Shown: one piece after another, positions 35,752 through 59,395 of the stretch
Numbering within the stretch: the first letter of the stretch is position 1
Layout: every line of letters begins with the position of its first letter
From: Dictyobacter formicarum
GTDB taxonomy: Bacteria > Chloroflexota > Ktedonobacteria > Ktedonobacterales > Ktedonobacteraceae
Direction of reading: 5' to 3'
Length of the DNA: 64,000 nucleotides
NCBI RefSeq assembly: GCF_016587435.1
Contig: NZ_BNJJ01000011.1
Span: 186,001-250,000 of the forward strand
Notes under the pieces: model-generated
What the model saw: the letters and a program-made list of their open reading frames with translations, nothing else
Database searches by the model: none
What the model was told of the DNA's origin: nothing
Program-made: the position numbers and the translations under genes

Positions 35752-35855
35752 CGTGCCTACGGCCCCTGACGCTTCGCGCCCACGGCGCTCAAAAAATTTC
35801 GTGTTGTGTCATGCAAAAGATGCGCAACTACGCATCTTTTGCATGACACAACACG
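35752..35855 (-). repeat. hairpin-plus-tail repeat element, copy A
   Basis: Hairpin arms 35800-35824 and 35831-35855 are a perfect 25-bp inverted repeat (loop CAACTA). On the minus strand the tail follows: TTTTTTGAGC, the mini-hairpin GCGCC-GTG-GGCGC, then AGCGTCAGGGGCCGTAGGC. It shares this tail with the copies at 47.2 and 59.2-59.4 kb. It sits between divergent genes (small membrane protein and cysE). See findings. Confidence 0.85.
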
Positions 35856-35931
35856 GAAAAGGATATAGGGGCATCAGCACCCCAGGCCAGCAAGGGAGCC
35901 CGATAGATCTGGAAAGAACTCTGAAACACAC

Positions 35932-35960
35932 TTGACAAGCAGAAATCCCTGTCCTACACT
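35932..35960 (+). promoter_or_regulatory. sigma70-like promoter of cysE
   Basis: Perfect TTGACA (35932-35937), 17-bp spacer, TACACT (35955-35960), 60 bp before the start codon. Confidence 0.6.
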
Positions 35961-36019
35961 CCAAAGAGAATATATTATAGGACGAATTTGGTCATCGAGA
36001 GAAAAGGACACAAGCAGGT

Positions 36020-36790
36020 ATGTCACAGGGACCACATAGTGCTTCAAACGGGACAGACATTCCTGAGAGCACGCAAGAAAACGACCAGCAATCCACTACC
36101 GATAGAGATGAACTGGCGTCCTTGCCAGAGTTGCCTCCAGGTATTTTTATTCCTGTTCCGGCCAAAACGCCCCGTCGCAAAACGCATTGGCCGGATGCCA
36201 TTGATGTTATCTTTGAAAAAGATCCAGCCTGTAAAAATATCTTTGAGGCGCTATTGTATCAAGGTTTATGGGCTATCCTGTTTCATCGGGCAGCACATGC
36301 GCTCTATAAAGCACACGTGCCGTTCATCCCGCGCATGATCTCCCAGTTTGCACGCTTTATCACCGGCGGTATTGAGATTCATCCAGGCGCCCAGATTGGC
36401 AAGCGCTTCTTTATTGATCATGGGGCAGGCGTGGTAATTGGTGAGACCACCGTCATTGGCAACAATGTTATGCTTTATCACCAGGTTACCCTCGGTGCCA
36501 CAGGCTGGTGGAGGCCCAACCCATTTCGCAAACAGCAGAAGAGGCATCCCACCATTGAGGACGACGTAACAATTGGCGTTGGCGCGGCCATTCTGGGTCC
36601 AATCACCATCGGTAAGGGGAGCAAAATCGGCGGTATGGCCCTGGTGCTAGAATCGGTACCAGCTAACTCGGTGGTTGTCTCTAAACCAGCCGAGCTACTG
36701 GTCAAAGGTGGTGAACCGTTGGAGAAACATCAAGAGTTGACCCAGGGCTGGAACGGCAAAGATCCCTGGGAGATGGATTACCAGATCTAA
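36020..36790 (+). CDS. cysE: serine O-acetyltransferase
   Basis: 256 residues. The left-handed parallel beta-helix (hexapeptide repeats) runs from about 110 to 220: IHPGAQIGKRFFIDHGAGVVIGETTVIGNNVMLYHQVTLGATG and TIGVGAAILGPITIGKGSKIGGMALVLESVPANSVVV, with the catalytic His in DHGAGVVIGE. It transfers acetyl from acetyl-CoA to serine, giving O-acetylserine for CysK-type sulfhydrylation. The N-terminus (1-60) is a polar, probably disordered extension beyond the usual length. The start follows AAAAGGA. The genome therefore encodes this OAS route as well as the CysO/CysM route at 24-27 kb. Monocistronic, convergent to the nucleoside hydrolase. Confidence 0.93.
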   Translation: MSQGPHSASNGTDIPESTQENDQQSTTDRDELASLPELPPGIFIPVPAKTPRRKTHWPDAIDVIFEKDPACKNIFEALLYQGLWAILFHRAAHALYKAHVPFIPRMISQFARFITGGIEIHPGAQIGKRFFIDHGAGVVIGETTVIGNNVMLYHQVTLGATGWWRPNPFRKQQKRHPTIEDDVTIGVGAAILGPITIGKGSKIGGMALVLESVPANSVVVSKPAELLVKGGEPLEKHQELTQGWNGKDPWEMDYQI

Positions 36791-36823
36791 TGCCCACACC
36801 GGGACCTCTTCACCTGAATACCT

Positions 36824-37756
36824 CTATGCATAACACTGAAGGGTATCCAGAAGCAGGTCCCAAAAGCGTTCAACCTGCAGCGCGTATCCGACGCACGCAT
36901 TCGCAGGCAGTCCCGTTTTACCATAGATGTCGCAAACAGTACGCCCTACCGTCCATTCTCCCTGCGTTTCAATAGCCACGTGCATCTCCCTGGTGAGTAT
37001 AATACCAGGCTCAATGACAGCGGCTACTGCACAGGGATCATGCAAGGGCGGCGCGGAAAAACCAAAAACCTGGCGATAGGAATCCGCAAAATAGTGCAAC
37101 AGATCAGCAACAAAGGTAGGTACAGGTCGCTGCATGGCGCGCAGGCGCTGCATAATATCTTCAGTAGCCAGAGCCTGGTGAGTTACTTCTAGCGGGACCA
37201 TCGTGATCGGTCTCCCACATGCAAAGACAATTGCCGCCGCTTCAGGATCTGCCCAGATGTTAAATTCGGCGCTGGCCGTCACATTGCCTACGCTGATCGC
37301 TCCGCCCATTAGCGATATGGCCTGGATTTTAGGCACGATAGCCGGCTCACGACGTATGGCCGCCGCGATATTCGTTAAAGGTCCGGTAGGAATCAATACG
37401 ATATCGCCATTGGACTGTAAGAGCAGTTCTATGAGCAGGTCGACGGCATGCTGAGCAGCCAGAGGAAAGGCGGGAACGGGCATCTCAGGACCATCCAGAC
37501 CCGATTCGCCATGAATATCGGAAGCAAAGCGCGCCGGACGTAGCAGTGGCCGCTGCATACCACGGGCTACTGGCACATCCAAGACGCGAGCCAGCGAGCA
37601 AACCTTCAAGGCGTTGGTCGAGGTCTTCTCTACCGACTGATTACCAGCCACAGTTGTCACTGCCAGCAGTTCCAGCGCGGGATGACGAGCTGCCAGCAGC
37701 AGTGCGATCGCATCATCGTGCCCTGGATCACAATCCAGAATAATCTTTTGTCTCAT
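36824..37756 (-). CDS. inosine/uridine-preferring nucleoside hydrolase
   Basis: 310 residues. Calcium-binding N-terminus DCDPGHDDAIALLLA (the DxDxGxDD signature), TVAGNQSVEKTSTNA and the active-site region EFNIWADPEAA, as in RihA/B-like and IUNH hydrolases. It splits ribonucleosides into free base and ribose in the cytoplasm. AAGGA lies 6 nt before ATG 37756. The family's C-terminal conserved His is in HDPCAV. It is convergent to cysE and divergent from the PFK-deoB unit; the nearby phosphopentomutase can use pentose phosphates, so nucleoside salvage is a sensible theme. Confidence 0.95.
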   Translation of the reverse strand: MRQKIILDCDPGHDDAIALLLAARHPALELLAVTTVAGNQSVEKTSTNALKVCSLARVLDVPVARGMQRPLLRPARFASDIHGESGLDGPEMPVPAFPLAAQHAVDLLIELLLQSNGDIVLIPTGPLTNIAAAIRREPAIVPKIQAISLMGGAISVGNVTASAEFNIWADPEAAAIVFACGRPITMVPLEVTHQALATEDIMQRLRAMQRPVPTFVADLLHYFADSYRQVFGFSAPPLHDPCAVAAVIEPGIILTREMHVAIETQGEWTVGRTVCDIYGKTGLPANACVGYALQVERFWDLLLDTLQCYA

Positions 37757-37936
37757 GTTCTATCCTTTGTCAGCTACCTCATCTTTGATAGTCAGCCTGA
37801 ACCGATAGATGTCGTCTACACAGATGAGTATTTTCTATCGTAGCATGTCTATATAAAGATTTTCAACTCCTCACAAAATTGAATGCAAGCATCCTGAACA
37901 GGCTCATGCAGAACAAGTCCTTCTCACATTTAGCAC

Positions 37937-37965
37937 TCGACGCCAATCGATGGCATTGTTATAAT
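37937..37965 (+). promoter_or_regulatory. promoter of the pfp-deoB-GNAT operon
   Basis: TCGACG (37937-37942), 17-bp spacer, TATAAT (37960-37965), 53 bp before the TTG start. Confidence 0.5.
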
Positions 37966-38017
37966 GACCCAGGAAAACCATAGCTGCGACAGCTAGTTGA
38001 AAATAGAGGGTATTGTA

Positions 38018-39226
38018 TTGTCAACAAACAAACCGGGCAATTTGATTATCGGACAATCCGGCGGAGCAACCGCGGTGATTAATGCCAGTCTTGTTGGTGC
38101 AGTTGAGGCCGCTCTCAACGATCAGCGTATCGGCGGCATCTATGGCATGCATCATGGCATTGAAGGTCTTCTCAAGGAAGATATTATCGACTTAGGCAAT
38201 CAACCGAACTCTGTATGGTCACAGCTTTTACATACACCATCGGCGGCTCTGGGTTCGTGCCGCTATAAGCTCCAGGAGCATGACCTGGAACGTACAATTG
38301 AAATTCTGCGCCGCTATGATATTCACTATATGCTCTATATCGGGGGCAACGATTCGGCCGATACGGCTCATCGCCTGGCTGAGGCGGCGCAACAGAGCAA
38401 CTATGAGTTATTTATTATAAGCATTCCCAAAACCATCGATAATGATCTTCCATTCACCGATCATTGTCCAGGCTATGGTAGTGCAGCTCGTTTTCTGGCG
38501 CAAGCCACGCAAGATTCCACCATGAATACGCTATCAATCCCCTGGCACTATCCCGTCAAAGTCATTGAGACAATGGGACGTGACGCTGGTTGGTTGACGG
38601 CCTCAGCCGCTCTGGGCAAACGCAGCGAGAGCGATGCGCCACATATCTTGCTGCTTCCCGAAAAACCTTTTAATGCGCAGAGCTTTCTGACACAAATTGA
38701 GGAGATTTATAAGCAGCTTGGCTTCGTTATTATCGTTGCGGCCGAAGCCATTCGCGATGAACAGGGCAATGCTCTGGGCAGCGCAGGACAGGCTGGGCTG
38801 GATGCTTTCCAGCATCCATTGCTAAGTGGGGCCGCTCAATACCTGGTAGAACTGGTTAAACGTGAATTGAAGCTGCGCGCACGCTTTGATAAACCTGGTG
38901 ACCTGCAACGTATGTCCAGTACTAGCATTTCTGTGCCCGATCGTAATGAGGCTTATCTGGTGGGCAAAATGGGAGTACATGCCCTGCTCGCTGGTGAAAG
39001 TGATAAGATGATAACATTGGTACGAGAAACACAAGCACCTTATCACTGCACAACTGGATTGGCAGAATTAAGCCAGGTCGCTAACGTACAGCGCCTGCTG
39101 CCAGATGAGTACTTAAATGCAACCAAAACAATGGTAACCGAGGCATTTTACGACTATGCATTGCCATTGATTGGTGAACCATTGGAATACCATACCCAAC
39201 TACAAATGACAAGGATACAGTCATGA
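38018..39226 (+). CDS. pfp: PPi-type 6-phosphofructokinase family protein
   Basis: 402 residues. The N-terminus IGQSGGATAVINASLVG begins the phosphofructokinase fold; the nucleotide/PPi site reads IGGNDSADTAH and the catalytic base lies in PKTIDNDLPFTDHCPGYGSA. ATP enzymes have GGDG; the GGND pattern together with PKTIDND is characteristic of the pyrophosphate-dependent long branch. It would phosphorylate fructose 6-phosphate, reversibly if PPi-linked. TTG 38018 is chosen because GAGGG lies 7 nt upstream; an earlier TTG at 37997 has no box. Its stop overlaps the start of deoB by 4 nt (ATGA), so the two are translationally coupled. Donor specificity needs assay; sugar-kinase relatives exist. 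Confidence 0.88.
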   Translation: MSTNKPGNLIIGQSGGATAVINASLVGAVEAALNDQRIGGIYGMHHGIEGLLKEDIIDLGNQPNSVWSQLLHTPSAALGSCRYKLQEHDLERTIEILRRYDIHYMLYIGGNDSADTAHRLAEAAQQSNYELFIISIPKTIDNDLPFTDHCPGYGSAARFLAQATQDSTMNTLSIPWHYPVKVIETMGRDAGWLTASAALGKRSESDAPHILLLPEKPFNAQSFLTQIEEIYKQLGFVIIVAAEAIRDEQGNALGSAGQAGLDAFQHPLLSGAAQYLVELVKRELKLRARFDKPGDLQRMSSTSISVPDRNEAYLVGKMGVHALLAGESDKMITLVRETQAPYHCTTGLAELSQVANVQRLLPDEYLNATKTMVTEAFYDYALPLIGEPLEYHTQLQMTRIQS

Positions 39227-40404
39227 CACACCTAACGCGAGCAATCCTGATCGTGCTGGATGGCGTGGGGGCAGGCGAAAATCCCGATGCCCGTGCCTAC
39301 GGCGACGAAGGAGCTAGTTCGCTCGAACACTGCGCCCAGGCCATCGGCGGCCTGGAACTGCCTAATCTCGGGACCCTGGGAATAGGCAATATCACTCCCA
39401 TTGTTGGGACCCCGCCTTGTGAAAAGGTCGCAGGTGCCTATGGACGCATGGCATCAGCTGCGGCCGGCAAGGATAGTACCACAGGGCACTGGGAAATGAC
39501 AGGCGTCGTTCTCTCCAGACCACTGCCCACCTATCCACACGGTTTTCCTGCGGATGTGGTCGCAGCATTTGAGCAAGCGATTGGACGCAAAGTTATCGGC
39601 AATAAAGTTGCCTCGGGCACTGAGATCATTAAAGAGCTTGGCGAGGAACATGTACGCACTGGCTTTCCCATTCTCTACACCTCCGCCGATAGCGTTTTTC
39701 AGGTTGCGGCCCATCAGGATGTTATTCCGCTCGCGGAGTTGTATCAGATATGCGAGATCGCCCGTAATATGCTTACAGGCGATCATGCGGTAGGGCGGGT
39801 CATTGCGCGTCCTTTTATTGGTGAGCCAGGTGCCTTCAAACGTACCGAGCACCGTAGAGACTTCTCGCTGGCTCCCACCGGCATTACGCTACTGGATCAC
39901 CTCAAGGACACAGGCAAAGACGTGATTGGCCTGGGTAAAATAGAAGATCTTTTCGCCGGACGCGGCTTAACCCAACGCGATCACACCGAAACGAACCGCG
40001 AAGGAATGGATGCCACCTTGAAATGGCTTGAACAGGATTTTGCAGGTCTACTTTTTGTCAATCTGGTAGAATTTGATATGCTATGGGGCCATCGACGGGA
40101 TAGTCAGGGGTACGCGCAAGCCTTACGCGATGTAGATCAGTGGCTTCCACTGGTTCAACAACGCATGCGGCCCGGAGATGCGCTCTTCTTTAGCGCTGAT
40201 CATGGGGTGGACCCCACCTATCGGGGCACAGACCATACACGGGAATGTGTACCCTTGCTTGCCTATGGAGAGCCAATTCGTTCCGGCATAAATCTTGGCG
40301 TTCGCCCAACCTTCGCGGACCTGGGTCAGACGTTAGCAGAAGCTTTTGGTGTCGAACCCCTGGCTGCTGGAACAAGTTTCGCACCTACACTGGGGTTAGT
40401 ATGA
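39223..40404 (+). CDS. deoB: phosphopentomutase
   Basis: 393 residues, standard length. Alkaline-phosphatase fold with DGVGAGENPDA, the phosphorylated Thr in AGKDSTTGHWEMTG, and the metal-binding DHGVDPTYRGTDHTRE near the end. It interconverts ribose-1-P/deoxyribose-1-P and the 5-phosphates, in nucleoside catabolism. The start codon overlaps the stop of pfp (ATGA), and its own stop overlaps the start of the GNAT gene in the same way. With the neighbouring nucleoside hydrolase this points to nucleoside salvage feeding glycolysis. Confidence 0.97.
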   Translation: MTHLTRAILIVLDGVGAGENPDARAYGDEGASSLEHCAQAIGGLELPNLGTLGIGNITPIVGTPPCEKVAGAYGRMASAAAGKDSTTGHWEMTGVVLSRPLPTYPHGFPADVVAAFEQAIGRKVIGNKVASGTEIIKELGEEHVRTGFPILYTSADSVFQVAAHQDVIPLAELYQICEIARNMLTGDHAVGRVIARPFIGEPGAFKRTEHRRDFSLAPTGITLLDHLKDTGKDVIGLGKIEDLFAGRGLTQRDHTETNREGMDATLKWLEQDFAGLLFVNLVEFDMLWGHRRDSQGYAQALRDVDQWLPLVQQRMRPGDALFFSADHGVDPTYRGTDHTRECVPLLAYGEPIRSGINLGVRPTFADLGQTLAEAFGVEPLAAGTSFAPTLGLV

Positions 40405-40967
40405 CAGAATTACAACGTGATAACAAAACAGATGTGGCTCAAGGGCCATATCTGCGTGGTGAACGCATCCAATTGCGCCGGCCAACCCCAAAAGATACGA
40501 ACTATGTCTTTCACTGGGAACGTGACGATGAGGTGTGGCGCTATGATATTCATCGACCGTATTCACGTACTATGGGCGAATTTTTGCCCACGTTCGAGCG
40601 CAACTACATCCGTGGTAATGGCCGCCAGTTCTGGTTCATCATTGAAGATGAAAACAGGATCCCCATCGGCACTATCACGTATTTTAACGTTGATAACCGT
40701 ATGGGACAAGCCGAGATTGGCCTGGGATTGGGAGACAAAACCCGCTGGGGTCAGGGCTATGGGCCAGAAGCGATTCGCACTCTGGTACGCTATATCTTTA
40801 CGTTGCCCGGCATTCGGCGTGTCTATGCAGAAACCGCTCTGGCCAACCATCCATCTCGTCGAGCCTTCGCAAAAGCTGGCTTTGTCGAGGTAGGGCAAAT
40901 CTACGATCCCCGCAGCACGGGCGAACTATGGGTGCTATTAGAAATATGGAAATCACATACTGTGTAG
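40401..40967 (+). CDS. GNAT acetyltransferase (RimJ/RimL type)
   Basis: 188 residues. Acetyl-CoA-binding motif A reads RWGQGYGPEAIRTLVRYIF, followed by YAETALANHPSRRAFAKAGFVEVG, typical of RimJ/RimL-like N-acetyltransferases acting on proteins or small amines. The start overlaps deoB by 4 nt (ATGA), so it is the third gene of the pfp-deoB operon. A role in that pathway is unclear. Substrate unknown. Confidence 0.9.
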   Translation: MTELQRDNKTDVAQGPYLRGERIQLRRPTPKDTNYVFHWERDDEVWRYDIHRPYSRTMGEFLPTFERNYIRGNGRQFWFIIEDENRIPIGTITYFNVDNRMGQAEIGLGLGDKTRWGQGYGPEAIRTLVRYIFTLPGIRRVYAETALANHPSRRAFAKAGFVEVGQIYDPRSTGELWVLLEIWKSHTV

Positions 40968-41053
40968 TCAGATTAAGAAAGGAGATGAGCTTTCTCTAGC
41001 TGTGATAGCTGGCCTGGCAAGCTGCTATCAACAGGGAAAGTTCATACATAATT

Positions 41054-42415
41054 ATGAGTACTTCTCATACTACCGTTGATCCATCCATTTTTAAAGCATA
41101 TGATGTGCGTGGCGTTTATGGTGAAACGCTATATCCCGAGACCGCCTATCGTATTGGACGCGCTGCCGCCCAATATCTGAATGTGCCTGAAATTGCTGTT
41201 GGCCGTGACATGCGTGTCTCGTCCCCGCAAATTGCTGAGGCCTTGATTCGCGGCATCAGTGACCAGGGAGTAAATGTGGTTGACCTGGGACAGGTCACAA
41301 CCGATGGACTTTATTTTGCAGTGGGCAAATTCAATTACTCGGCTGGCGCAATGGTTACCGCTTCACATAATCCAGGCAAATATAACGGGATCAAATTCTG
41401 TCGCGCTCAAGCCTTCCCGATTAGCCTGGATACGGGCCTGGGTGATATCCGAGATCTGGCGGTCAGCGGCAACTTCGCTGAGCCAACCAAAAAAGGCGAA
41501 ATTACCCGGCGCGATGTGATCGACGATTATGTCCAGCATGCGCTCTCTTTCATTGATGTCAGCAAGATCAAACCCCTCAAAGTTGTCATCGATGCCGGCA
41601 ACGGCATGTCGGGTCTGATTATGCCCCGTGTATTCAAATATCTACCCTGCGAACTGGTCCCGCTCTACTTTGACCTGGATGGTACATTCCCCAACCATCC
41701 GGCCAGCCCGATCGAACCAGAAAACATGGTTGATGTGCAGAAAAAAGTGCGTGAGGTAGGGGCAGACGTTGGTGCCGCCTTCGATGGCGACGCCGATCGC
41801 ATGTTCCCGGTTGATGAGCATGGCAATCTGGTCGACGGCTCTCAGGTTACGCTGGCCGTCAGCAACAGTTTGCTCCGCAAGCATCCGGGCTCAACCATTC
41901 TCTACAACCTGATTGTCTCTAAGAGCGTTCCCGAGTTGATTGAGAAGCTCGATGGTAAGGGCCTGCGCACCCGCGTCGGACATTCATTCATCAAAGCAGA
42001 CATGCGTAAAGCCAACGGTATCTTTGGTGGCGAGCACTCCGGACACTTCTACTTCCGCGATAACTGGTTCGCCGATTCCGGCTTGATCGCGCTGCTGATT
42101 ATGCTGGAACTGATTTCTGTCGAGGATAAACCTCTCTCTGAAATCATCCAACCGCTGGATCACTGGGTACGCAGTGGTGAAGTTAACAGTACTGTTCATG
42201 ATGCACAGTCCAAACTGCAGGCTCTGGAGGAACACTTCGGCAAGTCTGCTCAATCGGTCGATAAACTGGATGGTTTGACCGTCAACTACGGTGACTGGTG
42301 GTTCAATGTTCGCCCTTCGAATACCGAGCCGCTGCTGCGCCTGAACGTCGAAGCCAGAGATCAAGCTCAAATGGAGCAGAAGCGCGACGAAGTCCTGGCC
42401 TTTATTCGCGGCTAG
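41054..42415 (+). CDS. phosphomannomutase/phosphoglucomutase
   Basis: 453 residues. Alpha-D-phosphohexomutase with the phosphoserine loop MVTASHNPGKYNG, the metal-binding DGDADR in FDGDADRMFPVD, the sugar-binding GGEHSGHFYF and the phosphate-binding RPSNTEPLLRL. It interconverts hexose 6- and 1-phosphates (mannose and/or glucose), supplying nucleotide sugars for the cell envelope and glycans. The start is preceded by GGGAAAG. Monocistronic between the GNAT gene and sucC. Confidence 0.93.
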   Translation: MSTSHTTVDPSIFKAYDVRGVYGETLYPETAYRIGRAAAQYLNVPEIAVGRDMRVSSPQIAEALIRGISDQGVNVVDLGQVTTDGLYFAVGKFNYSAGAMVTASHNPGKYNGIKFCRAQAFPISLDTGLGDIRDLAVSGNFAEPTKKGEITRRDVIDDYVQHALSFIDVSKIKPLKVVIDAGNGMSGLIMPRVFKYLPCELVPLYFDLDGTFPNHPASPIEPENMVDVQKKVREVGADVGAAFDGDADRMFPVDEHGNLVDGSQVTLAVSNSLLRKHPGSTILYNLIVSKSVPELIEKLDGKGLRTRVGHSFIKADMRKANGIFGGEHSGHFYFRDNWFADSGLIALLIMLELISVEDKPLSEIIQPLDHWVRSGEVNSTVHDAQSKLQALEEHFGKSAQSVDKLDGLTVNYGDWWFNVRPSNTEPLLRLNVEARDQAQMEQKRDEVLAFIRG

Positions 42416-42451
42416 CGCCTGTAACAAAAGAAATAGTATCAGAGATGATTT

Positions 42452-42494
42452 CCAACCCCGGATCAGGATTACCAGTACTCCTGCCGGGGTTGCT
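42452..42494 (+). terminator. GC-rich hairpin after the phosphohexomutase gene
   Basis: CAACCCCGG pairs with CCGGGGTTG across a 25-nt loop; no T run. The rest of the 301-bp gap to sucC holds only the promoter described below. Confidence 0.5.
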
Positions 42495-42639
42495 CTCCAC
42501 GTGGTATATTACAAGCAGAGGAAAAAGCGGGAGTATAACAGACAGCTTCCCGGTCAGCAAAATCGGAGACGGGCCTTCTATATGTTCTCGTGCATCTCCA
42601 TTGGTGGCATAGGAGAAATCCCAGGCACTATATTCTCTC

Positions 42640-42668
42640 TTGCGCATAATAAGTAATTTCTTTAAAAT
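42640..42668 (+). promoter_or_regulatory. sigma70-like promoter of sucCD
   Basis: TTGCGC (42640-42645), 17-bp spacer, TAAAAT (42663-42668), 49 bp before the TTG start. Confidence 0.5.
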
Positions 42669-42716
42669 AGTGAGGAGTACAATGATGTACGACAAGTATC
42701 ACAAGGAGCAACTATT

Positions 42717-43865: not shown

Positions 43866-43870
43866 GGGAC

Positions 43871-44734: not shown

Positions 44735-44743
44735 CACAACGCT

Positions 44744-44776: not shown

Positions 44777-44826
44777 ACCTAGAAATAACCAGGCACTCAA
44801 CCAATCAGCCTGACCAAGGGAAATCT

Positions 44827-47116: not shown

Positions 47117-47181
47117 TTTTGACCGCAATATACTGCGATCAAAGCACTCCCTTTCGGGCGTCCGCATACGCGGCCGCACTT

Positions 47182-47294
47182 TTTTATTGAGACAATGGTG
47201 CAAAAACACGCGCTGAGCGCGTGTTTTTTGCACCATTGTCTCAATAAAACGCTTTGAGCGCCGTAGGCGCGTAGTGTCAGGAGCCGAAGGCGCG
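47182..47294 (+). repeat. hairpin-plus-tail repeat element, copy B
   Basis: Hairpin arms 47182-47213 and 47217-47249 (32/33 nt, loop TGA, one bulged base). The tail then reads GCTTTGAGC, mini-hairpin GCGCC-GTA-GGCGC, GTAGTGTCAGGAGCCGAAGG. It sits between the convergent GNAT and cyclase genes. See findings. Confidence 0.88.
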
Positions 47295-47308
47295 AATCTT
47301 ATGCTTTT

Positions 47309-50737: not shown

Positions 50738-50774
50738 AAACGGAAAGGGTAAAAATTGCCAGCAATGGGTGCGC

Positions 50775-53144
50775 CTACCGCAGTGCTTCTATGGGAAGGA
50801 AAATACGTACGCAGACACCCTCATTGGGAGTTGTTTTGACGGTAAGGGTGCCTCCAGCGATGGCAAGGAGCGCGCTATGTGTTAGGAGTCCGCCACCCGT
50901 TCCAGTGGTTGAGCAGCCGGCGGCAACGATGCCGATGCCGTCATCGGCTACCTCAACTTCCAGGTGAGGATTACAGAAAGCAGAGAGGGTGAGTCGCAGC
51001 CGACGATGGATATCAGAACCGCGAGCATGGCGAGCGGCATTGCGCAAGGCCTCCTGCACGGCAGCAAAGATCAATTCGGCAATCGCGGGAGGAACAACAT
51101 CATCAATGACCTGAGCGGTTTCCTCTGAGACGTTCCACTCGACCACATCAAAGGCCTGCTGAAAATCCTGTTCCAGCATGGTATGAATGGCGGCCATCAT
51201 GCCATCTCGCTCCAGGCGATGCGGGGCGCCGGTTGACATGGCTCGCATCATCGACGCCAGTTGGCGATGGACAGAACTGATCGAGCCAACCGCTTCATGC
51301 AAAGCTTGCTCAAAACGCTCTGGGGTCTCGCTATCCTGCGCATGGAGGGAACGTACGGTCTCCAGCCGCAACAGGGCCAGGTGCAACATTGGTAAGGTTT
51401 CATCGTGCAAGACACGACGTTGCTGGGCGCCCAACAGTTTTACATCTACCACACGCCGCCGCAACAAACCAGCTACCGCCAGCATGGCCTCATGATCACG
51501 CAGCGTATCCAGAATCCGCTGCCCACACGCCTGCGCCAGGTCCATATCTTCATTCGTAAAAGCCCCACCATCCTGGCGCGGGCCCAGATAAAGCCTGGCA
51601 ACCAATCCTAATTCATCATAAATCGGCAATACCCAGCAGATAACCGGCAGGCCTTGCAATAATACTCTGATACGATAAGCATGCAAGTCAGAACGCAGTA
51701 CCTTTGGACCTTTGATCTCGCTTAGCACCGGCTCATTGAGCTCAATGCCGCTCAGCTCTTCGGCATTTTCAGGCATATCTACGATTGACCAGCGATAGGA
51801 AAAACTTCTTCTAACAGGACCAGTCAATACGACCAGGCGCGCACAACGCACTTCCAATACCTCTTTACACAGGTGAAAGAAGAGGGCCTCCATATTTTGC
51901 TCGGTCTTCTGCAAGTCGGTGTTGAGCCAGTGACGCACACTGGTACTGCGCAAGAAAGGTCCTAACAATGAGACATAGCGGTCGTGCGCGGTGTAGCTAC
52001 TCCAGGTAAAGAGGGCATAGGCTCCGGTGGCAATGATGGTAATTAGCAACAGGCTTCCCAACGAGCTATGCGTAATCCACATCAGAAAAGAAATAAAAAG
52101 TGCAATAGCAGTAGCGACAAATACAATGCCACGCCATTGTTCAAAAAAGCCTCTCCGGGCCAGGGGACGCTCAATAAGGATGCCATGTCTGACAATTGAA
52201 TAGCCAATCAGCAAGACAATCAAGGCTACACAGCCGGTCGCGTAAATATCCAGCAGGATGAGATTAGTTGGTATAGTATTGGGGTTGGTCAAATAGGTTG
52301 CGGGAAGGCCGCCATTCTCCTGTATTTTCACCCAGTTGATCATCGACCAGACACCCAGTACACCTAAACTAAGGGTCAAACAGACCATCAATAGTGCCGC
52401 CAGCAATAATACTGGGCGCGCAAGATGCCAGGACAATACGGGCTCTTCCAGATTTTCCACATCAATCTGGTCATCCCAGAAAGCATCGACCAGGGAACGA
52501 CGCAAAGAACGGGTGCGCACACGCATGATGCCAAAGCGCCATAGGGCATTGAGCAGGCGTCCCACCCGTGCTGGCGTAAACCAGGGACCGATCACACAGA
52601 ATGTCACATAAGCTAAAAAGATTGGCAATACTAGCAGTGGTAAAGACGGTCCCCTCGGTGAGCCACTACTGATATCACTTCCATAGGCCAGCAGCAATAG
52701 CGTTCCCTTGAAAGTAAAAGTAGCTCGATTCACAATCAGAATCAACAGCACACTACAACCTAGCAGCGCGCTGCTAATCAGCAAGTATGGGCGGCGCCGG
52801 CTCCATTTGCTGTTGAGGAAAGAGGCGTAATACAGACCAATAACAAACCAGATATAGGGCACGCCGATGGCTGGGAACCAGATCAGGCGCCACAAAAAAT
52901 CGGCTGAGATAGGTCCGCCTGTAGCTATGGATAGAGAGCCAGAAATCAGCAAGGCATGAATAAAGAAAAAGAGCGCCGCCAATCCCAATCCCACCACACC
53001 CACACGCGCGATCATGCTGCGCCGATCACCATTCAGCCACACGGTAAACGCCAACCATAAAAAAGCTATCAGATTAAAAATCGACAAAGCCAGGGCGAGA
53101 GTTTGTAGCAACAAAGCAGGAGTCTGAAAAAACGGTACAGGCAT
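50775..53144 (-). CDS. membrane sensor histidine kinase with GAF domain
   Basis: 789 residues. Many hydrophobic segments in the first 400 residues (about 9-10 TM), a GAF-like region (about 420-560), then the phosphotransfer segment with LLGAQQRRVLHDETLPMLHLALLRLE and HATPase_c (N box AAVQEALRNAARHARG, G1 ADDGIGI). The His-box is HisKA_3-like but unusual. The start is ATG 53144, whose A overlaps the response-regulator stop (TAATG), so the two are translationally coupled. The input is presumably the large membrane domain; its ligand is unknown. I recognise no canonical name for it. Confidence 0.88.
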   Translation of the reverse strand: MPVPFFQTPALLLQTLALALSIFNLIAFLWLAFTVWLNGDRRSMIARVGVVGLGLAALFFFIHALLISGSLSIATGGPISADFLWRLIWFPAIGVPYIWFVIGLYYASFLNSKWSRRRPYLLISSALLGCSVLLILIVNRATFTFKGTLLLLAYGSDISSGSPRGPSLPLLVLPIFLAYVTFCVIGPWFTPARVGRLLNALWRFGIMRVRTRSLRRSLVDAFWDDQIDVENLEEPVLSWHLARPVLLLAALLMVCLTLSLGVLGVWSMINWVKIQENGGLPATYLTNPNTIPTNLILLDIYATGCVALIVLLIGYSIVRHGILIERPLARRGFFEQWRGIVFVATAIALFISFLMWITHSSLGSLLLITIIATGAYALFTWSSYTAHDRYVSLLGPFLRSTSVRHWLNTDLQKTEQNMEALFFHLCKEVLEVRCARLVVLTGPVRRSFSYRWSIVDMPENAEELSGIELNEPVLSEIKGPKVLRSDLHAYRIRVLLQGLPVICWVLPIYDELGLVARLYLGPRQDGGAFTNEDMDLAQACGQRILDTLRDHEAMLAVAGLLRRRVVDVKLLGAQQRRVLHDETLPMLHLALLRLETVRSLHAQDSETPERFEQALHEAVGSISSVHRQLASMMRAMSTGAPHRLERDGMMAAIHTMLEQDFQQAFDVVEWNVSEETAQVIDDVVPPAIAELIFAAVQEALRNAARHARGSDIHRRLRLTLSAFCNPHLEVEVADDGIGIVAAGCSTTGTGGGLLTHSALLAIAGGTLTVKTTPNEGVCVRIFLPIEALR

Positions 53145-53914
53145 TAGTATTCTTCTTTGTAGAGAGGGATCCACTCACCCCGGCGATCTTGCACCAGGGC
53201 CACGCCCTCCTCATCCCACATCACCATACGATTTAGCATATAAATTAATGTCGCGCGGGCGCGCGCCACCTTATCGTCTACAGCGTTCTCGCTCAATCCC
53301 CAGGCTGCATAAATCCGTCCGTTGGTGCGACTTACCGCTCGCTTATCATGCAAATTGAGACGCGTAGCAATCTGCTCGTTGGTCATACCCTGAGCCATCA
53401 ACTCGGCAACGCGCAGTTCATTAGGCTCTAATAGAGCTCGCGGCGATTGCTCATCCAGATCGCGTACCTCTTGCACACGATCTTCAATCTCTGGATCAAC
53501 CAGGCTGCGACCACTGACGGCATCGCGCAAAAGTGGCACCAGCATGCTGGGCAATAAATAATTACTCTTGCGTACATAGGCGTAATGCGTCAGAATACCA
53601 GAGGCGCGAAACTCGCGATAATATTCATCATCGTCTTGAATCGAATAAAACACCACCGGCATACGCGGACGTTCACGGCGGATGGCAACTGCGGCTCCCA
53701 CACCACTCAAGGCCCGACGGCCCTCCTTTGGATCACGCAATTGTACGTCCATCAAAATCACATCCGCATCTAACTCGAGCGCGCGCGTTACCGCTTCGCG
53801 GCCGGTTGCTGCCTCACCCAACACATGCACCTCTCTGGTAGACTCCAATCCCTCATATAGCGCTTTGCGCAAAGGACCGTGGTCATCGACCAGCAATACT
53901 TTCAATGTTCCCAT
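53144..53914 (-). CDS. NarL/LuxR-like response regulator with extended receiver loop
   Basis: 256 residues. Receiver (1-130) with the acidic pair D10/D11 and phosphoacceptor D56 in VILMDVQL, but a long DPKEGRRALSGVGAAVAI loop follows beta3, and the expected beta4 Thr/Ser is in VVFYSIQ. A DNA-binding helix-turn-helix (about 170-225) reads LEPNELRVAELMAQGMTNEQIATRLNLHDKRAVSRTNGRIYAAWGL, LuxR-like in the first half, with a non-standard continuation and a 30-residue C-terminal extension rich in Trp/Glu/Arg. It is the first gene of the operon; the kinase follows. The target genes are unknown. Confidence 0.85.
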   Translation of the reverse strand: MGTLKVLLVDDHGPLRKALYEGLESTREVHVLGEAATGREAVTRALELDADVILMDVQLRDPKEGRRALSGVGAAVAIRRERPRMPVVFYSIQDDDEYYREFRASGILTHYAYVRKSNYLLPSMLVPLLRDAVSGRSLVDPEIEDRVQEVRDLDEQSPRALLEPNELRVAELMAQGMTNEQIATRLNLHDKRAVSRTNGRIYAAWGLSENAVDDKVARARATLIYMLNRMVMWDEEGVALVQDRRGEWIPLYKEEY

Positions 53915-54365
53915 ATAATAACGTGGCTACTCCGTGTGCTGATATCAGCCATTGGCCAGGTTTTGATAGTGCAGACCAACCCTACACTCCCCAAATCTGC
54001 GCCATATGTATTGTCAAGTATAGCAATTTTTGACTGAAGAAGATAGCATCCGAGACCTGAAAATTTGCACCCGCAAACCAGGGATAAGCATCTCAGACCA
54101 TCACTTTATAGAATATCGTATTGAAATTAGCCTGAGAAAACTATACTATAACATCATACATAATAGAAGCATTGAACAAAAAGGAATGCTATCTAAACCG
54201 GGTGTGGGCTAGAAAATGCAACTTGCATATATAGCATATGCCATAATGCGTATTTCCCTCCTGATTGCATAAATTGCACAGCAACCAGAGGTGCCGGGAT
54301 TTTCCCGTGTGTATATTTATAATATTGCTCTCTCATACATACGAAATATAAAGGATAAAGAGAAA
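53915..54365. other. AT-rich intergenic region, divergent promoters
   Basis: 450 bp between the response regulator (minus) and the GH57 gene (plus). AT-rich. A near-palindromic ATATATAGCATATGCCATAATG lies at about 54226-54247. AAGGAT lies about 9 nt before ATG 54366. No gene is supported. Confidence 0.4.
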
Positions 54366-56564
54366 ATGACAACAACGCCAGAGCAGCAAAAAAGCATCCA
54401 TATCGGATTGCTTTTACATAACCACCAGCCAGTTGGGAACTTCCCCTGGGTATTTCAGCAAGTATTTGAGGAATCTTATTTGCCCATGATCGAAGCACTG
54501 GAACGGCATCCAGGCGTACGCCTCTCTCTCCATTATACGGGATCGCTCCTGGATTGGTTGGAGGAGGCTCATCCAGAATTTTTGCGCCGCGTAGCCAGGC
54601 TGGTAGCGCGCAAACAGGTTGAGATTGTCGGCGGCGGTTACTATGAACCTATCCTGCCATCTATTCCTGATAACGACAAGGTAACTCAGATTCGCCGCCT
54701 GACGGAACGTGTAGAGGCCAACTTCGGCACACGCCCGACCGGCATGTGGTTGGCCGAGCGCGTCTGGGAGCCAAGCCTGCCACGCTATTTAACTGAGGCT
54801 GGCATCCAGTGGACGATTCTGGACGATATCCACTTTAAAAATGTCGGTCTGGAAGACAAAGATCTCTATGGCTACTATGCCACCGAGGATCAGACAGACA
54901 TTTTGAAGGTCTATGCTACCAGCCAGTCGTTGCGCTATACCATCCCCTGGCGTCCTCCTCATGAGACTATCGATACGTTGAAAAAACTGGCGACCACTGC
55001 TGGCAATCGCATTGTGGTTATGGGTGACGACGGTGAGAAATTTGGCAGTTGGCCCGAGACGCGTCCATATTGTTGGGGTCCAGATGGACGCTCTGGTTGG
55101 GTCGATCAGTTCTTCACCTTGCTGGAGGAGAATAGCGACTGGCTACACACCACACCATTAGGAGAATATGCTACCCAGCACCCGGCCCTGGGACGCGTGT
55201 ATATTCCAACCTCATCTTATATCGAAATGACCGAGTGGGCACTCCCCCCACAGCGCTCTTATCAGTTCTCTCAACTTTTACATCAATTGGAAAGCGAGCA
55301 TCGCAACGATATTATTCAGTTTATGCGCGGCGGATTCTGGCGCAGCTTCCTGGTTCGCTATCCAGAAATCAACAACCAGCATAAGAAGATGTTACGTGTA
55401 CATGACGCTGTCTATGCAGCGGGTGGCAGCGAAGAGGTCGGTTTGACCCACTTGCTAAAAGCCCAGGCCAATGATACCTACTGGCACGGTCTCTTTGGGG
55501 GCATCTATATGGCTCATGTGCGCTCAGCCATCTATCATCATTTGATTAAAGCTGAAAATGCTGCTGATCGCATCAGACACGGGGCGGATCCCTGGCAGCA
55601 CTATGAATTCACCGATTTTGAGCGTAACACGTTGCAGCAATTGATCATCGAGAGCGACCAGCAAAATCTCTATCTGGATCCCCAGCATGGCGGCAGCCTG
55701 TTTGAATGGGATCTGCGACGCAGCGCCCATAATATGCTCGGTGTCATGACCCGGCAAGAGGAGAGCTATCACCAGACGCTACGCACCTATGAGCAGGAGC
55801 GCCGTCGCCATGCTACCACCGATCAGCAAATCGCAGCCAGCGGCGATCCGGGCAATCCACACAGCACTATCCGCACCAAAGAGGCGGACCTGGATCAGCA
55901 CCTGGTGCTGGACCGCTATCGCCGTAGCAGCCTGGTAGATCATTTCTTATCAGCAGGCCTGCCCCTATCCAGCTACGCACAGGTGCGCTACGCAGAACAG
56001 GGCAACTTTGCCAATGAGCCTTATCAAGCACACGTTACCCAGGATGAGACGGGTATCACCGTCGTGCTGAACCGCGAAGGTGTGATTAAGCGCCCCGGCG
56101 CATTGAGCCCATTGCCAGTCACTCTGAACAAAACCATCTTTGTCCCCCGAGGAGAAGAGAAACTGGTCATCCGCTATCAGATCACGAACCAGGGCCAGGC
56201 ACGCTTGCAAAGCACGTTTGCTACAGAATTAAATATAAACCTGCTTGGTGGCGGCGGTAATCCACAGGCCTACTGCACCGTTGACGGGCAACAACTGGAC
56301 AGCCATAGCTTTGATAGCACCGGCGAGACCTTTAACGTCAGTTCCATGCATATTGGCAACAACTGGTTACAGCAAGACCTGCACATCGTGCTCAGCCAGC
56401 CCGCCACCCTGTGGCGCTTCTCCATTGACACAGTTACCGGTTCAGAAGCAGGTTTTGAGCGTACTCACCAGGGTAGCAACTTCACGTTCCTCTGGCCCCT
56501 CACACTGGATAGTGGTGAAAGCTGGAACGTCGAGATTACCGCGCTGGGTCGCCAGTCTCAGTAG
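54366..56564 (+). CDS. glycoside hydrolase family 57 (4-alpha-glucanotransferase/amylase type)
   Basis: 732 residues. GH57 beta/alpha barrel with the N-terminal LLLHNHQPVGNFPWVFQQVFEE, EIVGGGYYEPILPSIP, the nucleophile in WLAERVWEPSLP, and the acid Asp in VVMGDDGEKFGSWPE. The C-terminal DUF1925/DUF1926-type domain continues from about 400 to 732. This architecture matches the thermococcal 4-alpha-glucanotransferase and amylase group, acting on alpha-1,4-glucans in the cytoplasm (no signal peptide). ATG 54366 is chosen over ATG 54291 because AAGGAT lies upstream. A role in glycogen or maltodextrin metabolism is expected. Monocistronic. Confidence 0.92.
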   Translation: MTTTPEQQKSIHIGLLLHNHQPVGNFPWVFQQVFEESYLPMIEALERHPGVRLSLHYTGSLLDWLEEAHPEFLRRVARLVARKQVEIVGGGYYEPILPSIPDNDKVTQIRRLTERVEANFGTRPTGMWLAERVWEPSLPRYLTEAGIQWTILDDIHFKNVGLEDKDLYGYYATEDQTDILKVYATSQSLRYTIPWRPPHETIDTLKKLATTAGNRIVVMGDDGEKFGSWPETRPYCWGPDGRSGWVDQFFTLLEENSDWLHTTPLGEYATQHPALGRVYIPTSSYIEMTEWALPPQRSYQFSQLLHQLESEHRNDIIQFMRGGFWRSFLVRYPEINNQHKKMLRVHDAVYAAGGSEEVGLTHLLKAQANDTYWHGLFGGIYMAHVRSAIYHHLIKAENAADRIRHGADPWQHYEFTDFERNTLQQLIIESDQQNLYLDPQHGGSLFEWDLRRSAHNMLGVMTRQEESYHQTLRTYEQERRRHATTDQQIAASGDPGNPHSTIRTKEADLDQHLVLDRYRRSSLVDHFLSAGLPLSSYAQVRYAEQGNFANEPYQAHVTQDETGITVVLNREGVIKRPGALSPLPVTLNKTIFVPRGEEKLVIRYQITNQGQARLQSTFATELNINLLGGGGNPQAYCTVDGQQLDSHSFDSTGETFNVSSMHIGNNWLQQDLHIVLSQPATLWRFSIDTVTGSEAGFERTHQGSNFTFLWPLTLDSGESWNVEITALGRQSQ

Positions 56565-56845
56565 CCAGAAACTCCTAAGCACATAGGATCAAACAAGCAC
56601 AGTTGAAAAAGAGACCCATCTGTAACGTTGATTATATAGGGGAAAGAATCTGTCTGATTGCATATTCTTTTTCTCCTATACACAAAACATGTCATAGATT
56701 TGTCTCTTTTTCTTACCATTCACTGTAGTAGTAAAGAACGGCCAGGTAAATGGCAACAAATACACATATCTATATCTTGCATTTATGTTGCTGAGATAGT
56801 TATCGATTATTGTGTATATGGAACAGGAAGGAAGGAGAAAAAACC

Positions 56846-57562
56846 GTGCCGAGGGTCCTGGTGCTGCAGCATACGTGGGAAAATCCTAAAGGTTATCTGG
56901 GCGAGCTTTTGGAAGCACATGGCATTGCCTACGATGTAACGGAGATTGAGAAAGCTACTCTCCCTGATCCATCAACCTATGCTGCAATTATCGCTCTGGG
57001 TGGCTCACAACATGTCTATGCAGAACAGGAGCACCCTTACCTGATCCAGGAAAAAGCCTGGCTACGCACTATTGTGACTCAGGATATTCCTTACCTGGGC
57101 ATCTGCCTGGGAGGTCAGATGCTGGCCGATGCATTAGGTGGACAGGTACGCCAACATATCATAACCGAGATTGGCTTCTTTGATGTTCAACTTACAACAC
57201 AGGGACAACAAGATCCTTTGTTTAGAGGGCTGCCAGGCTATCAGAAGGTTTTTCACTGGCATGAAGATACCTTCAATCTTCCAGAAGGCGCTCTGTTACT
57301 CGCTACCAGCGCAAATACGGAAAATCAGGCCTTCCGCTATGGGCGTTGTGCCTATGGACTGCAATATCATATAGAACTTGATCACGACACACTTAATACC
57401 TGGCTTTATCATCCGTCAATGAAAGAGAGTATGATTGCCATTCTAGGAATATCAGCATACCAGGAGCTCGAGCAAAAGCGAGAAATACATTTTTCCATCT
57501 ATCAACAGCATACAAAAATGCTATTCGAGAATTTTCTAAGAATATGTAATCTGATCCATTGA
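56846..57562 (+). CDS. class I glutamine amidotransferase-like protein
   Basis: 238 residues. GATase class I fold with the nucleophile Cys in YLGICLGGQMLADALGG and the late His-Glu in LQYHIELD. Sites and order match GMP-synthase-like amidotransferases (COG0518). The start is GTG 56846 with GGAG 8 nt upstream, after an in-frame ATG at 56810 that lacks a box. It is not next to any biosynthetic partner, so it may act alone as a hydrolase of gamma-glutamyl compounds. Substrate unknown. C-terminus LFENFLRICNLIH is unremarkable. Confidence 0.88.
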   Translation: MPRVLVLQHTWENPKGYLGELLEAHGIAYDVTEIEKATLPDPSTYAAIIALGGSQHVYAEQEHPYLIQEKAWLRTIVTQDIPYLGICLGGQMLADALGGQVRQHIITEIGFFDVQLTTQGQQDPLFRGLPGYQKVFHWHEDTFNLPEGALLLATSANTENQAFRYGRCAYGLQYHIELDHDTLNTWLYHPSMKESMIAILGISAYQELEQKREIHFSIYQQHTKMLFENFLRICNLIH

Positions 57563-57775
57563 AAAATAATATCTAAGAGTGCAAAACCCTTTTCTTTTCG
57601 TCCTACGATCTGCTATACTTGCACACAATAAGTTTATGCAACCTACACAACGGTTCGCCCAATATGCCAATCCAGCGAACCAGCAATATATGCGACAGGC
57701 ACGTTAGGGGTTGTGACAAAGTAGAGCAAGTATAAGATGTAGAAAACCAACTTTTTAAAGGTATTCCTGGACCAC

Positions 57776-58807
57776 GTGGTCTGTTCTATTGTAAATGGTA
57801 TAGGCATGAATTATCAAGTGATGAGAAAAAGTACAACATCTATAGTAAAATCATTCGAAAGGCAGCAATCGACGAAGATGCCACACAAAACCAGACATTA
57901 TAAGCGTACTACTATTCATCATCTTCATAAGCGATCACCTTTCGCTACTTCTAGTCGCAGCATAGCCAATGAACGCCACCCAACCCGTAATGAAGACAGC
58001 ATGATAATTGATGAAATCGGAGGCCTCTTTGCGGTCTTTGATGGCGTAGGAGGCAGCGCAGCAGCTGAAATTGCATCACAGACTGCCGCCCATTCTACAC
58101 GCCAGGCCTGGAAACGCATTATGACCCGTGACCGCCATCGGCGCAAAATCTATACATTTCTAGAAGATTGCAATAAGCGTGATCTGTGCAAAATCCTGGA
58201 AGATCTCATCCTGGAATCAGATGAACAGGTACGCACCAGCGGCGCCCAACGTGCTGGAACAGATGATCTTGCGACCACTGTTGCTCTGGCCACCTTCTGC
58301 CGCCAGCCAGGCTCTCACGAATATACGATGGTCTATGCGCATGTTGGAGATAGCCGTGTCTATCTATTACGTGGAAACGAGCGTATCAAGCGCCTCACAA
58401 GCGATGACGGCTTACTGACCAAACTGGTCGAAAACCAGATTGTCAACGAATACCATGCGTTCCGCATCGATCAGGCGATGAGAGCTGATCAGCTTTCCGA
58501 AGTCGAATATAACTACTTTAGATTGCGTGGCGGTATTACCCAGGCTCTGGGTGGACCAATACCACCTGCCATTCACACCAACAAAGCGAGTATACGTCCA
58601 GGAGATCGCATTCTCCTATGTACCGATGGCATTCATGATAATCTGACCGATGAAGAGATCGAAGATATTCTGAGGACCAGCCCACGGCCATCCGCTTCCC
58701 GCATCCTCGTTGAGAGCGCCCTCCAACGTTCACGTGAAGACCGCAGCCAGACAATTCGTTCTAAGCCCGACGATATGAGTGCTATTGTGATGACTTGTCG
58801 TTTTTAG
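57776..58807 (+). CDS. PP2C-family protein phosphatase
   Basis: 343 residues as written from GTG 57776, but the first 55 residues are basic and poorly conserved. The true start may be ATG 57806 or 57878 (an AAGGCAG lies before the latter). The PP2C metal-binding motifs are complete: NEDSMIID, LFAVFDGVGGSAAAEIAS, YAHVGDSRVYLLRG, GDRILLCTDGIHDNLTDEE and the terminal DDMSAIV. It dephosphorylates phospho-Ser/Thr with Mn/Mg. No kinase gene is adjacent. An IR hairpin-like region follows and the long gap to the next gene holds two repeat elements. Confidence 0.9.
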   Translation: MVCSIVNGIGMNYQVMRKSTTSIVKSFERQQSTKMPHKTRHYKRTTIHHLHKRSPFATSSRSIANERHPTRNEDSMIIDEIGGLFAVFDGVGGSAAAEIASQTAAHSTRQAWKRIMTRDRHRRKIYTFLEDCNKRDLCKILEDLILESDEQVRTSGAQRAGTDDLATTVALATFCRQPGSHEYTMVYAHVGDSRVYLLRGNERIKRLTSDDGLLTKLVENQIVNEYHAFRIDQAMRADQLSEVEYNYFRLRGGITQALGGPIPPAIHTNKASIRPGDRILLCTDGIHDNLTDEEIEDILRTSPRPSASRILVESALQRSREDRSQTIRSKPDDMSAIVMTCRF

Positions 58808-59166
58808 CACGCATTTGTCAGCAGGCGGCATTGAGGCTGAGCCGGGACTAGCGATACGTACAAATTATAAAATGAAATAGCGAGCACTTACAGGCAATGT
58901 TTACAGAGCTTGCTCGTGGCTCGCTACGCCGTCATGCTGCTACCATGGCAGCAGCATTGTACTGAAAAGCATATCAACTACACAAGCACCTATACTTATA
59001 CAATTAAACGACATCCCCATAAGATTATTGGCACTCCCCATTTTCTATGATTCTATCCTATTTCTCTTCTCTCATTTTTCACTCAATCCTGAAATTCAAA
59101 TAGATGAGCGTTTAGAAAGTGTCTGCTTCCCAGCATAGTGGGAAAACGCAGGCGTCCCTATTCTCT

Positions 59167-59262
59167 TTTTTATGTTGGTGCAAAACGTGCGCTGTGCGCA
59201 CGTTTTGCACCAACATAAAAACTCTTTTGAGCTCCGCAGGAGCGTAGTGTGAGGCAAAGAGA
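59167..59262 (+). repeat. hairpin-plus-tail repeat element, copy C
   Basis: Perfect 26-bp hairpin, arms 59167-59192 and 59196-59221 (loop TGT). The tail reads CTCTTTTGAGC, mini-hairpin GCTCC-GCA-GGAGC, GTAGTGTGAGGC. The second mini-hairpin of the other copies is lost here. Tandem with copy D, 30 bp apart. See findings. Confidence 0.85.
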
Positions 59263-59292
59263 CCACGATGGGCGTGGGAATCAGACACGCTG

Positions 59293-59395
59293 TTATACGT
59301 TGGTGCAGCAGTCGCGCTTTTGCGCGACTGTTGCACCAACGTATAAAAAACCTTTTGAGCGTTGTAAGCGCGTAGCGTCAGGAGCCGAAGGCGCG
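59293..59395 (+). repeat. hairpin-plus-tail repeat element, copy D
   Basis: 25-bp hairpin with one G-T pair, arms 59293-59317 and 59322-59346 (loop TTTT). The tail reads CCTTTTGAGC, mini-hairpin GCGTT-GTA-AGCGC, GTAGCGTCAGGAGCCGAAGG. Same orientation as copy C. See findings. Confidence 0.88.

Follow-up and report, generated by a model that had tools for sequence, protein, structure and literature searches.

A 64,000-nt stretch of the Dictyobacter formicarum genome (contig NZ_BNJJ01000011.1 of assembly GCF_016587435.1, positions 186,001 to 250,000; the window) carries four copies of a repeat in which a long hairpin is followed by a short tail. It raises the question of what kind of element this is, and how its stem can change in sequence from copy to copy and stay paired. 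The four copies belong to a dispersed repeat family of the class Ktedonobacteria, which is new and has a life style like that of repetitive extragenic palindromic (REP) elements and miniature inverted-repeat transposable elements (MITEs). The element is bipartite, with a long stem that is most likely kept perfect by template switching and a tail that is probably a conserved folded signal.

The copies had been recognised in an earlier reading of the sequence alone (the sequence-only reading), and all four were found at their places. A tail pattern fitted to them (≤3 mismatches) matched exactly four sites in the window and none in 100 shuffles, and a covariance model built from 47 sequences, the window's four included, detected the same four tails and no fifth. 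Each copy has a near-perfect long hairpin (arms of ~25–33 bp), a spacer of 6–10 nt and a tail of ~46 nt. In every tail, a 5-bp mini-hairpin with a 3-nt loop is followed by a linker, to which copies 1, 2 and 4 add a 3-bp mini-hairpin. The folding energies of the four copies gave z values from -6.9 to -8.6.

Evolution of the long stem

The evolution of the stem was followed in three close genomes of the class, G033, G034 and G035 (the trio), which are 94% identical over one 3-kb locus and 85–99% (most 93–98%) over longer alignments. Orthologous hairpins were paired by their flanks in 260–280 kb of each genome. Of the 58 hairpins of G035, 38 were paired with one in G034 and 33 with one in G033, and 36 of the 63 in G034 were paired with one in G033; cases with no flank, no hairpin or several hairpins were dropped, and the substitution counts exclude one, one and two pairs with unequal gaps. 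Substitutions affecting both arms and one arm numbered 58 and 18, 90 and 7, and 90 and 18 in the three genome pairs. Both-arm change per column (0.055, 0.102 and 0.096) exceeded the divergence of the flanks per base (0.040, 0.079 and 0.068, respectively). Informative loops were the same, inverted or otherwise different in 12/9/13, 9/5/15 and 3/10/18 cases, i.e. 9 of 34, 5 of 29 and 10 of 31 non-palindromic loops were inverted. A smaller run over 120–140 kb gave the same picture. In a simulation under an identical detection threshold, in which each arm mutated independently of the other at the rate of the flanks, 0.3–0.7 both-arm changes, 77–101 one-arm changes and ~0.05 inverted loops were obtained per pair.

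Individual stems illustrate these changes. In one, the length of an A-run differs among the genomes and is equal in both arms, and the loops are TAG, CTA and TAG; in another, the loops are GTTC and GAAC. Loops were also seen in both orientations relative to the tail (GAAT in four and ATTC in three copies, ATCC in three and GGAT in two). In the window's own family, copy 2 has an ortholog in D. aurantiacus (G001) between the same convergent genes. Across their 33 stem columns, nine changes are common to the two arms and the arms disagree at one place; 129 of 140 positions of the left flank are identical.

Joint change of the arms was thus found in the trio and at copy 2, and loop inversion in the trio. 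Selection on pairing does not predict loop inversion, whereas copying of one arm from the other does; together with the joint arm change and the few intermediates, the inversions point to template switching rather than to selection on RNA. The sequence-only reading had argued that changing stems with kept pairing mean selection on structure. For the long stem this argument is not supported, since one-arm and G-T intermediates are few, change is faster than in the flanks and loops are inverted; striking pairing of the arms need not mean selection on RNA.

The stem is therefore most likely kept perfect mainly by template switching, for which the comparative evidence is strong in the relatives within the class and comes from one ortholog for the family itself. 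A replication fork would meet the long hairpin, and the nascent strand would fold back or switch to the other strand. One arm would be copied from the other, by which mismatches would be erased, substitutions and indels would spread to both arms and the loop might flip. Such copying would let the stem drift quickly in sequence yet stay near-perfect. The 3' tail, with one or two C-GNA-G mini-hairpins, keeps its sequence, strand and loop, and a putative factor that spreads or processes the element might read it in folded form.

In the accessible parts of the respective papers, template switching is described as perfecting quasi-palindromes in E. coli (PMC7202029) and as homogenising arms and inverting spacers in yeast (PMC8604942); a further proposal is that RNA stems arise and persist through it (PMC8794818). 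The stems studied here share identical arms and inverted spacers with such quasipalindrome correction (the E. coli thyA hotspot and others). Unlike those hotspots and single events, the process appears here to govern many hairpins and a dispersed repeat family. Stem covariation is commonly read as proof that an RNA structure is under selection, and here it seems to be largely produced by mutation. Genomes of this kind would serve as a natural control for RNA-structure discovery, and template switching as it occurs in living bacteria is richly documented in their orthologous hairpins, including its rates, switch lengths and loop inversions.

Several points weigh against this explanation. One-arm changes exist (7–18 per genome pair), and the three comparisons within the trio share branches and are not independent. 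The trio test is based mostly on tailless hairpins and sister tails, and for the tail family of the window the cross-species comparison is limited to copy 2, the loop of which is not inverted (TGA, versus TGG in D. aurantiacus). At the copy 1 locus, the hairpin of D. aurantiacus is decayed and imperfect, and a remnant of the tail accompanies it; hence, correction is not unfailing. At single loci, the entire hairpin may have been exchanged through recombination with a different copy, and selection on pairing may act as well. Tailless hairpins of the trio are enriched between convergent genes and are probably terminators. No mover was found, and target duplication is limited to one 5-bp candidate.

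Distribution, gain and loss of the tailed family

A scan of public genome contigs with the tail pattern gave five stretches, four in D. aurantiacus S27 (Chloroflexota, Ktedonobacteria) and one in a Bacteroidales contig, with no hairpin before the match; viral contigs gave no matches to the pattern. Among five Dictyobacter genomes, D. aurantiacus is the nearest relative of the window (79–85% identity at three loci, compared with 75–84% for G003). A looser tail pattern matched the D. aurantiacus genome 53 times, and its reversed control 6 times; with the covariance model R1, at least 79 matches had an E of 0.001 or less. The covariance search proposed with the sequence-only reading thus yielded further copies in relatives, and the copies there bear out a dispersed family with two separately paired parts. 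In the class as a whole, 18 of 47 genomes were matched by the tail model. In three large genomes, weaker matches, referred to as sister tails, numbered at least 105 in G033, 106 in G034 and 104 in G035, these counts being lower bounds because 132 candidates per genome were scored. The copies shown from the trio are built alike, with a long hairpin followed by GAGCGCCGCAGGCGCGAAG or a sequence close to it.

A hairpin of score ≥18 precedes 54 of the 67 pattern matches in the fetched loci, false matches included; copy 2 is among the remaining 13 because of its extra base. The arms of the 54 tailed copies are 18–41 bp long (≥24 bp in 51) and have no mismatch in 43; only 12 of 1716 pairs are not Watson–Crick, eight of them G-T, while the stems vary widely between copies. 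A module like CGGGCGTCCGCATACGCGGCCGC, which lies 5' of the hairpin in copy 2, is present in 14 of the 54 other tailed copies and in 19 of 2000 random stretches. What gives this dispersed repeat its identity is the tiny folded tail.

Presence or absence of whole elements was observed at single loci. G003 and G005 lack the element at the copy 2 site, which reads 'CAAACATC TTTAGGGC' in G003, where the window has 191 extra bp; variation in presence between relatives was thereby confirmed. The extra segment is preceded by TCTAG and followed by TTTAG, perhaps a 5-bp target duplication (TYTAG) in this one case. The gene matches of this locus are 39 nt apart in G002 and ~940 nt apart in G004. Copy 2 is taken to have been inserted before D. 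aurantiacus and the window's species separated, with loss elsewhere as an alternative. Neither copy 3 nor copy 4 has an equivalent at the corresponding site of G001 and G003, where the intergenic sequence is shorter and unalignable.

Within the trio, G034 alone has an insert of ~175 bp, consisting of a hairpin and the variant tail GAGCCACGTAGTGGCG, and another of ~77 bp with a hairpin of a different family; no target duplication was seen at the gain in G034. Other trio copies are absent or cut down, as judged by eye between short direct repeats. Further palindromic repeat families also vary in presence between G033, G034 and G035 (L167–L186 and L258–L277), with units that include GTAGGGTCCATGCAAGCATGGACCCTAC-like and CCTGAGCGCG...GGTTTTCG sequences.

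A second tailed class, with GTGTGGAGTGTG-like arms followed by a GGCGCCGCAGGCGCC-like mini-hairpin, was noticed at L088, L095, L117, L123 and L221 in G003 and at L111 in G001; three of the loci are 0.3–1.8 kb from a Y1 or REP-associated tyrosine transposase (RAYT) gene in G003, which may be coincidence. By eye, a direct repeat of the left arm, of upstream bases or of both precedes D. aurantiacus hairpins at L018, L020, L033, L048, L050 and L052, which is a sign of local rearrangement. At L048, the inner stem GGCGGGG is missing from the first repeat copy, which would fit a small palindrome that grew outward as nearby sequence was copied.

A literature search gave no title or abstract start describing this repeat family, most subscription journals being outside its coverage. 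In the accessible part of PMC13289182, on Ktedonobacteria, large terminal repeats are treated and the words 'hairpin', 'palindrom' and 'repetitive' are absent. In that of PMC3733652, on REPs, 'Ktedonobacter' is absent and 'Chloroflex' occurs once.

The conserved tail and alternative explanations

When 47 tails were aligned, 100% of the helix 1 cells were paired. Two of the five pairs in this helix, which the search patterns left free, vary on both sides, and there are wobble pairs. A GNA loop between a pyrimidine and a purine is present in 43 of 47 tails for loop 1 and in 42 of 47 for loop 2; the search pattern fixed the G of loop 1 and left its A and the whole of loop 2 free. A test without this bias covered every 5-bp mini-hairpin with a 3-nt loop that lay no more than 34 nt from a long hairpin, the loops being read in the outward direction. 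In the trio, where the loci are partly orthologous, 30 of 47 such loops were GNA and one was TNC; the respective numbers were 14 and 2 of 21 in D. aurantiacus and 3 and 0 of 4 in G003. Background mini-hairpins had GNA in 36 and TNC in 25 of 398 cases (G035), and in 42 and 46 of 557 (G001). The excess of GNA over TNC near long hairpins shows that the tail is strand-specific and does not flip.

Selection on the structure of the mini-hairpin, as claimed from the sequence alone, is thus supported as a constraint by the full pairing of helix 1 and the strand-specific GNA loops. As cited in the accessible part of PMC6479982, C-GNA-G loops form extraordinarily stable DNA mini-hairpins (Yoshizawa et al. 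1997). With good evidence for constraint, the tail is best regarded as a strand-specific folded signal, which may be read as a folded single strand, DNA or RNA; the strand-specific loops are compatible with recognition as folded single-stranded DNA. GTAG follows the mini-hairpin on its 3' side in 34 of 47 tails, 8–9 nt before the second mini-hairpin, and the trio tails shown have mostly GAAG in its place.

Alternatively, the long hairpin could be kept paired by selection on a transcript, as a terminator, a protection of the mRNA 3' end or a processing signal, through ordinary compensatory mutations. Strong folding fits this explanation. So does the placing of D. aurantiacus tailed copies relative to open reading frames (ORFs), with 13 in convergent, 19 in tandem and only three in divergent gaps; 35 of 41 copies could be placed by simple ORF calling, six being dropped for an overlapping ORF or a missing neighbour. 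However, the tail points along the genes in nine of the tandem cases and against them in ten. Among 13 tailed copies in 400-kb stretches, one was convergent, eight tandem (four along, four against), three divergent and one inside an ORF. In the window, copy 1 lies between divergent ORFs, copy 2 is convergent, and the other two are tandem, both along the genes. In the trio, where convergent gaps make up 13–20% of intergenic bases, 35 of 73 tailless hairpins and none of 23 tailed ones are convergent. The tailless hairpins, also perfect and in the same genomes, are probably bidirectional terminators, and in this respect the repeats resemble intrinsic terminators, but the tailed copies are not oriented in any consistent way at gene 3' ends and behave like insertions. 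The usual terminator stem is several times shorter than these stems. A role as a terminator-processing unit, suggested from the sequence alone, is possible, although the orientation to genes is random. The inverted loops, and the fact that one-arm or G-T intermediates are scarce, also count against transcript selection, which is improbable as the cause of the pairing.

Mobilisation as a REP element by a RAYT (TnpA-REP) transposase had been suggested from the tetranucleotides GTAG, GGAG and GAAG, and is quite improbable. REP elements and REPtrons (GTAG- or CGTC-tagged, with TnpA-REP) are likewise short, intergenic, high-copy and palindromic. According to the accessible part of PMC8266576, some REPs, including those of S. 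maltophilia, are short perfect palindromes, i.e. mini-hairpins with a 3-nt loop. That of PMC3733652 gives REP stems of 5–13 bp in repeats of 20–40 bp, versus stems of 18–41 bp in an element of ~191 bp here; the mini-hairpin alone would fit the REP stem size. The frequent GTAG would agree with a REP tag, but it stands on the wrong side of the mini-hairpin and away from the palindrome foot, so that the unpaired GTAG or CGTC at the palindrome end was not found, and in the trio it is mostly replaced. A REP formed by GTAG and a larger downstream palindrome (CAGG...CCTG) was also considered and rejected, being present in 3 of 40 tails versus a shuffled mean of 4.2.

RAYT genes were searched for with Pfam Y1_Tnp in five Dictyobacter genomes and with NF047646 in 47 class members. 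Matches to NF047646 were present in D. aurantiacus (four, ≥66 bits, of which L093:4797-5417 is over the cut-off), G003 (three, ≥61 bits), G002 (one) and G005 (one). In contrast, G034 had no match despite at least 106 tail matches, the best matches in G033 and G035 were weak (38 and 41 bits), and G006, with a match of 81 bits, had one weak tail match. A search for tails beside RAYT genes likewise spoke against the link: around nine RAYT genes (L093–L095, ±5 kb; L217–L222, ±3 kb) the tail model found nothing above 14 bits. Looser patterns gave few, chance-like matches there, some inside genes. Long hairpins occur in five of the nine neighbourhoods (L093, L095, L218, L219 and L221), and at L093 sister tails with hairpins are 3.5 kb from the RAYT gene. 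Hairpins of the second tailed class lie 1.5–1.8 kb from two G003 RAYT genes (L095 and L221), but G003 has one long hairpin per ~7 kb anyway. A role of the D. aurantiacus RAYT at L093 is possible, but no result links it to the copies; at L093:3110-5417, the gene is directly behind an ORF that, judged from its translation, resembles an IS4-type transposase.

A fold-back MITE of an ordinary DDE transposon, in which the long hairpin would be joined terminal inverted repeats, would account for the presence or absence of 191 bp between TCTAG and TTTAG at copy 2. It is very improbable, since the inverted repeat does not include the conserved parts and no part of the element is less conserved than the arms. 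MITEs and enterobacterial RU-type repeats are similar as small, non-coding, intergenic elements in random orientation. In contrast to them, the ends of copy 2 have no terminal inverted repeats by eye, the inverted repeat is internal, the stem is variable, and no related transposase was identified, although no systematic search for a transposase with matching ends was made. A rather unlikely variant is a new kind of mobile repeat, whose hairpin would be rewritten by snap-back synthesis during replication or insertion and whose folded GNA tail would be read by a non-RAYT enzyme. Such an element would re-invent most of its own sequence, with its identity carried by the tail.

Long hairpins in the window and across the class

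The features of the four copies are listed in Table 1. The proposed stem core GTGCA reads ATGCA in copy 1. The near-perfect arms were confirmed, the exceptions being the extra base in copy 2 and one non-Watson–Crick pair each in copies 1 and 4. The conserved stretch GTAGyGTCAGGAGCCGAAGG is exact in copies 2 and 4 and has three mismatches in copy 1, whereas copy 3 retains the mini-hairpin and GTAGTGTGAGG and diverges after the latter. At the Rfam gathering score, the window gave a tRNA alone and nothing on the copies; with E up to 1, copies 3 and 4 gave 18 sub-threshold matches, 17 to microRNA families and one to a viral pseudoknot.

Table 1. Positions of the parts of the four repeat copies in the window
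Feature	Position	Strand	Remarks
Copy 1, long hairpin, arms of 25–26 bp	35800..35855	-	
Copy 1, tail: GCGCC-GTG-GGCGC, linker, GCC-GTA-GGC	35745..35790	-	covariance model 64.3 bits
Copy 2, whole element, ~191 bp	47117..47307	+	bounded by the short sites in G003 and G005
Copy 2, 5' module CGGGCGTCCGCATACGCGGCCGC, small hairpin	47155..47177	+	optional in the family
Copy 2, long hairpin, arms of ~31–33 bp, one with an extra base	47182..47249	+	
Copy 2, conserved tail	47256..47301	+	covariance model 66.8 bits
Copy 3, long hairpin, perfect arms of 26 bp	59167..59221	+	
Copy 3, tail, conservation limited to the first ~26 nt	59229..59274	+	covariance model 46.1 bits
Copy 4, long hairpin, arms of 25 bp, one G-T pair	59293..59346	+	
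Copy 4, conserved tail	59357..59402	+	covariance model 58.4 bits

Long near-perfect hairpins far outnumber the tailed family. A scan for hairpins of score ≥18 with loops of 3–10 nt gave 236, 243 and 242 per Mb in G033, G034 and G035 (120–140 kb each, in stretches chosen around one locus, so that these densities may be high), 158 in G001 (63 in 400 kb picked by round coordinates, 53 of them perfect) and 150 in G003 (21 in 140 kb). Lower densities were found in G002 and G032 (88 each), G005 (75), the window (62, with copy 2 missed by the scan), G037 (30), G025 (25) and G004 (10); the values for G003, G004 and G005 may also be high, their stretches being chosen partly around known tail matches. 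No hairpin was found in 80–100 kb each of G018, G023, G036, G039 and G043 or in 50 kb of E. coli K-12, and ten first-order Markov surrogates of 400 kb reached a hairpin score of 12 at most. The median arm in the richest genomes is 27–31 bp, and by extrapolation these would carry more than 1000 long hairpins per genome. Members of a single class, and even of a single genus, thus differ in load from 0–10 to more than 150 hairpins per Mb (G036 and G004 versus G035 and G001).

Loss of the hairpin nuclease SbcCD is a possible cause of the hairpin load but was not supported, as the TIGR00618 matches failed to separate rich from poor genomes. Sub-cut-off matches to TIGR00619 were present in all five Dictyobacter genomes, and those to TIGR00618 in 10 of 13 genomes and absent from three, irrespective of load. 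The strongest TIGR00618 match was in G043, where no hairpin was seen, and hairpin-poor G004 and G023 and hairpin-rich G001 had none.

Copies 3 and 4 (59167–59402) are in tandem, 126 bp apart, with different stems, and a duplication with stems rewritten since is possible. A fifth hairpin missing from the sequence-only reading, at 28595–28649, has perfect 26-bp arms and no tail, and is found 5 bp downstream of the minus-strand ORF 28654–31032. Further tailless hairpins, perfect or near-perfect, at 27365–27413 and 63541–63584 look like ordinary terminators.

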